A stretch of DNA of 39,240 nucleotides from an uncultured Clavibacter sp. (GTDB taxonomy: Bacteria; Actinomycetota; Actinomycetes; Nanopelagicales; Nanopelagicaceae). The DNA lies in contig CAKZXY010000049.1 in assembly GCA_937883945.1 (NCBI GenBank), positions 1 to 39,240 on the forward strand, in the 5' to 3' direction. The translations under genes and the position numbers were made by a program. Numbering within the stretch: position 1 is the first letter of the stretch; every line of letters starts with the position of its first letter. The notes under the pieces were generated by a model that had not been told where the DNA came from, did no database searches, and saw nothing but the letters and a program-made list of their open reading frames with translations. Positions 31,829-35,948 of the stretch are shown in pieces.

Positions 31829-32977
31829 ATGGAAAATCTCTTCGACCTTCCTGAGGAATACCAAGCCTTAAGAGCGAGCGTTCGCTCACTTGCTGATAAA
31901 AAAATCCAACCCTTTGCGCATGACGTTGATGCTAATTCCAGATATCCGCAAGAAGCATTTGAAGCTCTTCAAGGTGCAGGTCTTGCAGCAGCCCATGTTC
32001 CTACTGAATATGGCGGCGATGGAGCAGATGCACTTGGCGTTGTAATAATCATCGAAGAAGTTGCCAGAGTCTGTGCTTCTGCATCTTTAATTCCTGCAGT
32101 AAATAAACTTGGATCTGTTCCACTTATATTGGGTGGTAGCCCTGATCAACAAAAGCGCTGGCTAACACCGCTTGCTCAAGGAAAAGGTTTTTCATATTGC
32201 CTCTCAGAATCAGAGGCTGGATCAGATGCTGCTTCAATGAAAACAAAAGCGGTAAGAAAAGGCGATGGTTGGGTTCTAAATGGAAGTAAGAAGTGGATTT
32301 CAAATGCTGGAGTCTCTGAGTTTTATACAGTTTTAGCATCAACAGATCCAGAGAAAGGCGCAAAGGGAATTACAGCATTTATCGTAGAAAAAAGTGATCC
32401 TGGTCTTTCATTTGGTGCGCCAGAGAAGAAGATGGGCTTTAAAGGATCTCCAACCCGTGAGGTCTACCTAGATAATGTTGAAATTAGCGATGATCGCAGA
32501 ATTAGTGAAATTGGAGCAGGTTTTGCTCTTGCTATGAAGACTCTTGATCACACCAGAATTACTATCGCTGCGCAAGCACTAGGCATAGCCCAAGGAGCTT
32601 TTGAAGTTGCTACTAAATATGCTCATGAGAGAAAGCAATTCGGCAAACCAATCTTTGATTTTCAAGCAGTGCAATTTATGTTAGCTGACATGGCTATGGA
32701 AATTGCTGCTGCAAGGCAGCTGACATATGCCGCAGCAAGTAAGAGTGAAAATAGCGCAAGTGATTTAACCTTCTTCTCTGCTGCTTCAAAATGTTATGCA
32801 ACCGATGTAGCCATGAAGGTAACAACCGATGCAGTCCAAGTTCTCGGTGGATATGGATATGTAAGTGATTATCCTGTGGAGCGAATGATGCGAGATGCGA
32901 AGTTAACTCAAATTTATGAGGGAACTAATCAAGTCCAGCGCCTAGTGATGGCTCGAAACCTTAATTCTTTGCTGTAA
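31829..32977 (+). CDS. Acyl-CoA dehydrogenase
   Basis: 382 aa; CLSESEAGSDAASMKT, NGSKKWISNAG, KMGFKGSPTREV, YAHERKQFGKPI, QVLGGYGYVSDYPVERMMRDAKLTQIYEGTNQVQR. Confidence 0.95.
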   Translation: MENLFDLPEEYQALRASVRSLADKKIQPFAHDVDANSRYPQEAFEALQGAGLAAAHVPTEYGGDGADALGVVIIIEEVARVCASASLIPAVNKLGSVPLILGGSPDQQKRWLTPLAQGKGFSYCLSESEAGSDAASMKTKAVRKGDGWVLNGSKKWISNAGVSEFYTVLASTDPEKGAKGITAFIVEKSDPGLSFGAPEKKMGFKGSPTREVYLDNVEISDDRRISEIGAGFALAMKTLDHTRITIAAQALGIAQGAFEVATKYAHERKQFGKPIFDFQAVQFMLADMAMEIAAARQLTYAAASKSENSASDLTFFSAASKCYATDVAMKVTTDAVQVLGGYGYVSDYPVERMMRDAKLTQIYEGTNQVQRLVMARNLNSLL

Positions 32978-33524
32978 ACCTAACCAAGATTTCAGGGGTT
33001 GCTGCAGCATCTAATTTGCAATCAAAACTCTCTACAGGAAGTTTCTCACTTGTTAGTTCACCGCTATAGACCAGAGCAACTTTCCAGGAATTTAACTTCG
33101 CTAATGCGCGATCATATGAGCCTCCACCTTGACCGAGGCGATTTCCCTGGCGATCAACGTGAAGAGCTGGAACTATCACAACATCAATGTTTCCCATAAA
33201 ACTCTCACCCTTTGGTGACTTTACTTTGCCATCAATTTCTAGATCTTCATCCTTTCCTGTCCAGATAATCCAATCTAGATCATTATCTGGAAGGCGTCTT
33301 GGCAATAAAAGAGTCTTACCACTTTGAATCAAGGATTTGTTTAGCTCTGATGTGTCTGGCTCACTTGCATATGAGTGATAACTTGCAAGAACCTGGGAAC
33401 TTTTGATTTCTTTACTATCTAATAAATGCTGCCAAGAACTCTCTGTGATGAGAAACTCTCTCTCACTTCGAAAGCGCCGGCGAAGTTCTGACTTAATTAA
33501 TGACGCACTCTGGGTTGAATCCAC
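32961..33524 (-). CDS. 5-formyltetrahydrofolate cyclo-ligase
   Basis: SELRRRFRSERE, DVVIVPALHVDRQGNRLGQGGGSYDRAL. Confidence 0.93.
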   Translation of the reverse strand: MDSTQSASLIKSELRRRFRSEREFLITESSWQHLLDSKEIKSSQVLASYHSYASEPDTSELNKSLIQSGKTLLLPRRLPDNDLDWIIWTGKDEDLEIDGKVKSPKGESFMGNIDVVIVPALHVDRQGNRLGQGGGSYDRALAKLNSWKVALVYSGELTSEKLPVESFDCKLDAAATPEILVRFTAKN

Positions 33525-33557: not shown

Positions 33558-34481
33558 GTGAGCGAAACGATTAAGGTGGCTGAACTTGCTACTGAACTGC
33601 TAGCGCTAGCAAAGCCGCTTGCTGCCTTTGATATGCCCTTACTTGATGCCCATGGGGCAACTCTGGCCCTTGATGTTCTCTCTGGTGAGCAGGTTGCGCT
33701 TAAATCTGGTTCAAGAATCCGTTCCACTCAAATAGGCCTTGCTGCATCTCTTGGTTTAGATCGCCTTCCAACTAGGCCGCAGCCAAGAGTGGTAATTGTT
33801 TCAGCAGGAGATGATTTAGTAGAGCCGGGATCACCCCTTAGAGATGGCGAAGATGAGTATGAGACCAATTCATGGCTATTAACAACGGCAGTCAAAGAGG
33901 CTGGAGCAGTGGGCTATCGAGTTCATACCATCCCAGAAAATGCTGCCCAATTAAAAGATGTAATTGAAGATCAATTGGTAAGAGCTGATTTATTAGTCAT
34001 CTGCGGCGAAAGACATGATGAGTCTTTTTCTCTCATCTATTCAGTACTTAATGAACTTGGAAAAGTTCGTGAAGTACTTCCATTAATCGAGGGAAGTGGT
34101 AAACATTCATTTGGAGTTGTGGGCCCAGATCAGACTCCAGTGGTTTCACTTCCAGGAGATCCGATATTTGCATATATCTCAACAGAGCTTTTTATCCGTC
34201 CAATGATCCGAAATATGATGGGGCTATATGACATCCATCGACCAGTAATCAAAGCAACTTTAACTGGTGATGTGTTAAGTGAAGTTGGAAAACACTCTTT
34301 TATAAGAGGAGTTCTCTCTAGCGATAATCCAGAGCGAAGACTCATTACTCCAATTGAAAATCAAGGAGATTTAATTGGATTATCTGATGCCACAGGTCTA
34401 ATAGTTATTCCAGAGAATGAAAGTGGCGCTAAAGCTGGCGCTGAAGTTGATGTCTTAGTTCTCGAGCGACGTTTTAATTGA
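33558..34481 (+). CDS. glp: MoeA/gephyrin-like protein (Glp-like), shortened and with degenerate active-site motifs
   Basis: 307 aa; LDAHGATLALDVLS then directly LKSGSRIRSTQIGLAASLGLDRLPTRPQPRVVIVSAGDDLVEPGSPL, ETNSWLLTTAVKEAGA, ADLLVICGERHDES, VSLPGDPIFAYISTELFIRPMI. MoeA domains III/I/IV recognisable; domain II missing. GTG start. Confidence 0.82.
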   Translation: MSETIKVAELATELLALAKPLAAFDMPLLDAHGATLALDVLSGEQVALKSGSRIRSTQIGLAASLGLDRLPTRPQPRVVIVSAGDDLVEPGSPLRDGEDEYETNSWLLTTAVKEAGAVGYRVHTIPENAAQLKDVIEDQLVRADLLVICGERHDESFSLIYSVLNELGKVREVLPLIEGSGKHSFGVVGPDQTPVVSLPGDPIFAYISTELFIRPMIRNMMGLYDIHRPVIKATLTGDVLSEVGKHSFIRGVLSSDNPERRLITPIENQGDLIGLSDATGLIVIPENESGAKAGAEVDVLVLERRFN

Positions 34482-34485
34482 TTTT

Positions 34486-35058
34486 ATGGCAAGTCTTTCT
34501 AGCCATAAGTGGCCCACAGTTCTCAAAGAGGATCAGATAACTCTTAGACCACTTAGGTTGCGTGATAGGTCAGCTTGGTTAGCTGTTAGAAAAATCAATA
34601 GAGCATGGCTCTCTCAGTGGGAGGCAACCTCACCCATTAGCCATGAGAATAAGAATCTTCCTAGCTACTTTGAGATGGTTAATTACCATCGAGGTGAGGG
34701 CAGAGCTGGAAGATCGCTAACTCTGGCTATCTGGTTTGAAAAGAATCTGATTGGCCAAATTACTTTAGGGGGGATCTCCTATGGCGCATATCGCGGAGGT
34801 CATATCGGCTATTGGATTGATGAGCGATATGCCAATAAAGGGATAACCACTAGGGCTGTAAGGAGATTGACCAGTTATGGCTTTGAGGAACTTGGTTTAC
34901 ATCGCATCGAAATTAATCTAAGACCTGAGAATTCAGCATCTAAGAGAGTGGCTGAGAAGGCTGGGTATGTTTTTGAAGGGCTTCGTCCTCGTTATCTTCA
35001 TATTGATGGTTCATGGCGCGATCACCTTTGTTATGTGAAAGAAAATCCCAGAATTTAG
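34486..35058 (+). CDS. RimJ/RimL-type GNAT acetyltransferase
   Basis: LRPLRLRDRSAWLAVRKINRAWLSQWEAT, IGQITLGGISYGAYRGGHIGYWIDERYANKGITTRAVRRLTSYGFEELGLHRIEINLRPENSASKRVAEKAGYVFEG. Confidence 0.93.
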   Translation: MASLSSHKWPTVLKEDQITLRPLRLRDRSAWLAVRKINRAWLSQWEATSPISHENKNLPSYFEMVNYHRGEGRAGRSLTLAIWFEKNLIGQITLGGISYGAYRGGHIGYWIDERYANKGITTRAVRRLTSYGFEELGLHRIEINLRPENSASKRVAEKAGYVFEGLRPRYLHIDGSWRDHLCYVKENPRI

Positions 35059-35141: not shown

Positions 35142-35948
35142 ATGGGCTCAGGGCTTATCTACTTAATCATCATCGGCATGTGGATTGCCTACTTCCTGCC
35201 CCGTTGGATTTCAAATCATGAAGAGATAAGCGGTAGATCTGTTAAACGATTTGATGAAGCAATGAAGGTCGTGGGAATGAGTTCTGGCCATACCGCTCCA
35301 GATATTGATTCTCTAAATAAGAAACGTGAACACCAGCTAGCAATGCGCCGAATTCAATTCTTCTCGATAATTGGATTAGCAATCGTTGTCTCTCTATTTA
35401 CTTTAGTGGGACTACTTTCTCCAGTTATTCTTCTTCTACCAGGATCAGTCTTTCTGATGTATGTAGTTAATGCTCGATATCAGATTAGTTTGATACAAGA
35501 AGAAGTAAAGCGAATCAATTCTGCAAATAAAGTTACAAGCAAATCATCTGCAGCAAATTATGCAGAAATCATTGGACGATCTAAGCGCGCAGCATCTCTT
35601 GCAAGTATTACCGAAGGTTCAGGTTTGAGTGAAGAGCAATGGCTTCCATTGTCAGAGCGACTCTCTTCCTACCAAGATAGTGGAAGTATTACCTTGCTTC
35701 CTAAGGGCAGCGCAAGTAAAGATGATAAAAGCTGGGATCCAGTTTCAGTTCCTGCTCCAAATTATGCCAATTCATCTAAGGCAGTTCCTCGTCGCGTAAT
35801 TGACTTAACTATTCCTGGCGCTTGGAGCGAGGCACAAGAAAAGATTATGCGCGAAGTTTTGGCGCCGAGTGCAGATAAGATTTTTGATCAAGAAGTTGCT
35901 GATCAATACGAAGAACACCTTCGCAGCAATAGAGCTGCTGGCCAGTAA
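35142..35948 (+). CDS. glpR: GlpR-like membrane protein (putative receptor of the gephyrin-like protein)
   Basis: N-terminal TM SGLIYLIIIGMWIAYFLPRWISNHEEISGRSVKRFDEAMKVV, second TM region, low-complexity tail, conserved-looking C-terminal RRVIDLTIPGAWSEAQEK. Position after moeA-like and rimJ fits. Confidence 0.7.
   Translation: MGSGLIYLIIIGMWIAYFLPRWISNHEEISGRSVKRFDEAMKVVGMSSGHTAPDIDSLNKKREHQLAMRRIQFFSIIGLAIVVSLFTLVGLLSPVILLLPGSVFLMYVVNARYQISLIQEEVKRINSANKVTSKSSAANYAEIIGRSKRAASLASITEGSGLSEEQWLPLSERLSSYQDSGSITLLPKGSASKDDKSWDPVSVPAPNYANSSKAVPRRVIDLTIPGAWSEAQEKIMREVLAPSADKIFDQEVADQYEEHLRSNRAAGQ

Follow-up and report, generated by a model that had tools for sequence, protein, structure and literature searches.

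The window analysed here, a stretch of 39,240 nucleotides from a member of the Nanopelagicaceae, carries a short form of glp next to fthC, rimJ and glpR. The features at this locus are the following:

32961..33524, - strand: fthC, encoding 5-formyltetrahydrofolate cyclo-ligase, a divergent neighbour kept beside glp (Pfam, NCBIfam, synteny).
33558..34481, + strand: glp, short form, encoding a 307-residue Glp/MoeA homologue that lacks domain II (ORF, Pfam, NCBIfam, 8bve match, alignment).
33681..33686, + strand: the junction codons S42|G43, where a domain II of about 100 residues is missing (alignment with full-length Glps; C. glutamicum domain II; pLDDT).
33777..33788, + strand: P74-x-P76-R77, hinge 2, the Pro-rich link from domain I to domain III and a signature of Glp; it is invariant among Glps of both lengths.
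33777..34229, + strand: domain III, of the MoCF_biosynth fold, with the catalytic motifs lost (GDDL, CGERHDESF, LPGDP; Pfam, alignment, tree alignment).
34230..34478, + strand: domain IV (MoeA_C), the domain with the lowest conservation among short Glps (Pfam, 8bve alignment).
34314-34343, + strand: the counterparts, domain IV residues 253-262, of the hairpin that binds FtsZ in C. glutamicum (8bve alignment).
34486..35058, + strand: a RimJ-like GNAT acetyltransferase gene between glp and glpR (Pfam, synteny).
35142..35948, + strand: glpR/sepX, encoding a membrane protein and predicted Glp partner (NF050099, synteny, alignment).
35733..35825, + strand: the GlpR tail motif W-x-P-x3-P-x-P-x-Y-(x)n-R-x-I-D-L-T (alignment).

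The glp ORF begins with GTG and is open end to end. Pfam matched MoCF_biosynth (residues 80-218) and MoeA_C (232-302) in the protein and gave no match to MoeA_N. The top-scoring model was NF045515, the NCBIfam profile for Glp, with 234 bits versus 173 bits for the actinobacterial MoeA profile; its E-value of 2e-69 rules out a chance resemblance, and only profile positions 139-403 were covered. As expected because one domain is absent from the protein, the score misses the NF045515 equivalog cut-off of 475 bits, which four full-length relatives within the family exceed. The best PDB sequence match, the solved C. glutamicum Glp (8bve), aligns from its residue 152 only. In the alignment with full-length relatives, a gap opened between S42 and G43 (window 33683/33684), at the site of C. 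glutamicum domain II (residues 46-145; PMC10522489), and residues 1-42 of the short Glp join straight onto the segment that matches C. glutamicum residue 151 onward. By Pfam, alignment and model, the four-domain architecture I-IV is therefore absent, domain II being the missing part. The fused MogA (G) domain of gephyrin was not found either, with one MoCF_biosynth domain detected by Pfam. Of the Pro-rich hinges described for Glp (PMC10522489), hinge 2 was the one assessed, and it is present in the short protein.

The same junction recurs well beyond the window. The genomes sampled across the order and the class are mostly metagenome-assembled, and in the 15 short-Glp genera that were aligned the junction lies at the identical place without indels. 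Among the matches listed, four cover the whole profile (G028, G108 and G154 of genus g6, and G175 of genus g40), and all other main matches begin at profile positions 137-144. A probable fifth full-length Glp, in G196 of g6, is apparently split at contig ends. One apparent short Glp, in G541, was rejected as a cut gene, as its match stops at a contig end with moaC adjoining. Because all aligned short copies share the junction and the order-wide matches start at the same place, this intact ORF has neither a frameshift nor a local gap in the assembly at ~33670. The preliminary description had proposed a clean deletion of the ~100-residue domain II from an otherwise intact ORF, which is what we observed; the two things it named as speaking against the deletion, domain II lying elsewhere or a break near 33670, were not found.

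Phylogenetic analysis placed the short Glp in the Glp clade together with C. glutamicum Glp, split from E. coli MoeA and the second-copy MoeAs with 99/99 support. The short Glps of the family form one clade (100/100) that adjoins the full-length in-family copies, and the branch leading to it is long (~0.8 changes per column). The preliminary description had called the protein a MoeA/gephyrin homologue; by tree and profile it is, more precisely, the Glp paralogue rather than a generic MoeA. Judged by profile, structure match, tree and locus, the window protein is orthologous to Glp and represents, in the Nanopelagicaceae, a version cut down to the non-catalytic part. This family is mentioned in neither of two papers on Glp, the evolutionary one of which is also silent on domain II; among open-licence PMC papers, we found no report of a MoeA or Glp that lacks domain II. 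Megrian et al. stated that Glp-bearing bacteria hold at least two MoeA copies; here, in g6, g40 and about ten outgroup genomes, the protein of the Glp clade or Glp locus is the sole MoeA_N match, with moaC present.

The gene order fthC (divergent)-glp-rimJ-glpR is common to the short-Glp genera of the family that were read, in agreement with the conserved neighbourhood noted earlier, and linkage to glpR, a feature of Glp membership, was found in the window as in these other genera. In the window, 4 bases separate glp from rimJ. In g6, which has the full-length form, the order is fthC, a nucleotidyl transferase gene, glp, moaC, a MogA/MoaB-type gene, rimJ and glpR, and moaC follows glp in many outgroups; by comparison with this order, the short lineages lack moaC and the MogA/MoaB gene in the interval from glp to rimJ. 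The window GlpR matches the SepX/GlpR model NF050099 with E=3e-23 and 83 bits, under the 150-bit cut-off. Its tail motif is kept in most sequences across the class, and we infer that it is a candidate Glp-binding segment. In addition, SepF was found in the window's genome and in 22 of 23 relatives of the same genus, and the FtsZ sequences retrieved by BLAST have a conserved tail, EDEIDIPDFMK. This tail is similar in most short-Glp genera; it reads DELDVPDFLK in g10, also a short-Glp genus, where it may have drifted after the loss of domain II.

Because the protein is a Glp orthologue and is linked to glpR/SepX, we propose that the short Glp is probably a non-enzymatic divisome scaffold, with GlpR and probably FtsZ as its partners and with domain II dispensable. 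The protein would dimerise through its core, be recruited to the septum by the membrane protein GlpR, act there as the cytoplasmic adaptor and probably touch the FtsZ tail. Domain II would have served molybdate insertion only, and could be deleted once cofactor making was no longer required. For the full-length Glp of C. glutamicum, rather than for the short form, these steps are supported by published work, with a Kd of 4.7 µM for FtsZ and 5.5 nM for GlpR (PMC10522489).

Modelling, one of the checks suggested in the preliminary description, gave a confident fold: the AlphaFold2 monomer of the short Glp has a pLDDT of 87.6 and a pTM of 0.87, and pLDDT is about 93 over residues 31-50, across the junction. 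The top Foldseek matches were 8bve and 8bvf, with a TM-score of 0.82-0.83 over the query. The remainder of the protein is therefore predicted by the model to fold as MoeA domains I-III-IV. Furthermore, 2nqm_A, a MoeA chain of which only 322 residues are modelled, can be aligned with no 100-column gap of the kind that complete chains show, and this gap-free alignment suggests that the MoeA-fold core is stable in the absence of an ordered domain II.

Conservation is distributed differently in short and full-length Glps, the short set being taxonomically narrower than the full-length one. The modal frequency in domain I is ~0.80 in short versus ~0.65 in full-length Glps; conservation in domain III is 0.70 versus 0.77, with 45 of 151 short-Glp positions at 90% or more, and in domain IV 0.47 versus 0.61, with 1 of 83 positions at 90% or more. 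Two FtsZ-loop residues of C. glutamicum, M361 and Y369, are replaced by S254 and R261. M361 is absent also from the other full-length Glps aligned, and Y369 is kept in most of them and lost in the short ones. Since domain IV is the least conserved domain and both residues are changed to S and R, it is uncertain on these alignments whether the short Glp binds FtsZ through the known domain-IV hairpin, and such binding should not be taken for granted. A possible, though rather unlikely, variant is thus that the short Glp remains a scaffold whose contacts, to GlpR or another partner, are made mainly by domain I and the core of domains I and III, and no longer by the hairpin. The higher conservation of domain I, the lower conservation of domain IV, the loss of Y369 and the long branch to the short clade favour this variant; however, the equivalents of L360 and L370 are still leucine, the FtsZ tail is conserved, and the other hairpin residues vary among full-length Glps as well.

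The scaffold reading also takes the short Glp to be non-enzymatic. The DNSAMDG and TGAP motifs are gone along with domain II, and the alignment bore out the motif changes that had been listed for the rest of the protein: GDEL to GDDL, SGGVSxGxYD to CGERHDESFS and LPGNP to LPGDP. In addition, the PGKP lysines are lost, and the equivalents of E188, D259 and K275 are all altered. In the window's genome (G000, ~88% complete), no match was found to MoaA, MoaC, MoCoBD_1 or MoeA_N, and thus no domain II or other MoeA; a search for cofactor genes had been suggested in the preliminary description. Across the order, MoeA_N and MoaC occur together in 66 genomes, MoeA_N only in 5, MoaC only in 2 and neither in 178, a co-occurrence for which the Fisher p cannot be read as the probability of independent events, the genomes being related. 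Nearly all genomes with both encode a separate MoeA of ~390 residues alongside the short Glp. In G004, of the same genus as the window, this MoeA is grouped with moaA, moaC, moaE, a MobA-like gene and a transporter gene, and Glp is short. The G004 cofactor genes (L201 153-12834) lie close to a nitrate-reductase-type molybdoenzyme and were possibly acquired as an island. The text of a published acI genome paper describes the pathway and formate dehydrogenase in one of its strains only (PMC5301498). The exceptions are g6 and g40, in which the sole MoeA_N protein is a full-length Glp with intact DNSAMDG, GDEL, SGGVS and LPGNP and with moaC adjoining. Relatives with the pathway thus have either a full-length Glp (two genera) or a canonical MoeA beside the short Glp. 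Three of the full-length Glps with intact Mo-insertase motifs (L161 2403-3617 in G028, L173 in G108 and L172 in G175) are candidates for true dual-function Glps. An intermediate state was observed in G040 (L174 1314-2537), a reduced-genome relative in which domain II is kept and the active site is degraded; MoaC and MoaA were not detected in this genome.

Two enzyme-derived readings bear on these data. The short Glp might bind a pterin or nucleotide in the domain III pocket and thereby act as a metabolite sensor with a regulatory role, instead of as a plain scaffold, as the many invariant positions of domain III would allow; with the catalytic and substrate-contacting motifs changed and the precursor pathway absent from the genome, we regard this as improbable. 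Continued Mo-insertase activity, with domain II either provided in trans or unneeded, accords with the retained and recognisable MoCF_biosynth fold but is scarcely credible, given the absence of MoeA_N, MoaC and MoaA from the window's genome and most relatives, the separate MoeA or full-length Glp of the pathway-bearing relatives and the altered E188, D259 and K275 equivalents.

Glp is nevertheless retained. A Glp match was found in 242 of 251 genomes of the order and in all 108 good genomes; all 17 single-contig genomes have an intact Glp of the short form, and 14 of the 17 lack both MoeA_N and MoaC. A Glp on BGOH01000001.1 (L035), which matches that of G005 of the window's genus at 96%, is encoded by a glp split by an apparent frameshift. 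The dN/dS of glp against close relatives, another check raised earlier, is 0.05-0.07, close to the values for rimJ and glpR and below that for fthC, comparisons near dS saturation (L024 and beyond) being left out. On this measure, glp is under strongly purifying selection. A decaying pseudogene leaving a streamlined genome, which the lost domain, the lost active site and the reduced genome might suggest, is therefore hardly conceivable and, as far as sequence evidence allows, refuted by the dN/dS values, the intact copies and the constant locus in the genera read. Taken together, the loss of domain II, the changed catalytic positions, the absent pathway and the continuing selection strongly support the view that the enzymatic role of the short Glp has been lost; the earlier proposal of a retained function other than molybdate insertion, as a non-enzymatic scaffold, is supported, the scaffold role by orthology and linkage.

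A second lineage has a Glp of the same form. In genus g85 of family f38 (G367 and G535, 1.5-1.6 Mb), Glps of 307 and 318 residues lack the same domain and lie in an fthC-glp-rimJ-glpR locus:

L204 2572-3495 (G367): short Glp of f38, domain II lost at the same boundary.
L205 3775-4731 (G535): short Glp of f38, domain II lost at the same boundary.

In the sister genus of g85 (G375), the fthC-glp-rimJ-glpR locus encodes a full-length Glp whose active site has decayed, and another copy, its motifs intact, lies beside moaC. A single origin of all short Glps was rejected for the f38 lineage (AU p = 0.004). The tree calls for two separate losses, and domain II thus appears to have been lost twice independently at the same place, the long branches making the AU test less than certain. 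Because G535 encodes two further MoeA-type proteins, loss of domain II does not require the loss of every MoeA. This parallel in a second lineage suggests that domain II is not needed for division, a role for which the remaining domains would suffice. We tentatively propose that an ancestral single Glp/MoeA served both cofactor synthesis and division, as it appears to do in two genera, and that at least two actinobacterial lineages, after cofactor synthesis was lost or moved, independently excised domain II, the partner surface then moving away from domain IV and onto the domain I/III core.

It is an open question in the field whether Glp is an enzyme that moonlights or one that has been repurposed: whether its enzymatic function had been kept was first reported as unknown, and the loss of that function was later argued from active-site decay (PMC11733289). 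A family living with a Glp that lacks the catalytic domain, together with the independent second case, amounts to a deletion experiment made by nature that separates scaffold from enzyme, and the short Glp is a minimal construct for scaffold testing. Compared with MoeA, Cnx1E and gephyrin E, domains I, III and IV fold alike (TM-score ~0.85 over the query to the E. coli MoeA, Cnx1E and gephyrin E chains), whereas the short Glp, unlike the Mo-insertases, lacks domain II, the catalytic signature and a genomic cofactor pathway. Neuronal gephyrin offers a working analogy, as a MoeA-fold dimer that bridges a membrane protein and a tubulin-type cytoskeleton, but its fused MogA domain has no counterpart here. 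Subdomain II of gephyrin makes dimer-dimer contacts in assemblies (PMC13086950); because domain II is absent, the short Glp should not build a gephyrin-type array, and higher-order assembly would need other contacts. As with SepX/GlpR of Streptomyces and Corynebacterium (PMC8748795, PMC10522489), the neighbouring membrane protein has a conserved tail motif, but the window GlpR has diverged to below the curated score cut-off. The closest known system is C. glutamicum Glp (8bve/8bvf, PMC10522489): this 419-residue chain has four domains, whereas the short Glp lacks domain II and the M361/Y369 hairpin residues, and the two share their clade, domains I-III-IV, the glp-glpR pair, the Pro-x-Pro hinge and a degenerate active site.
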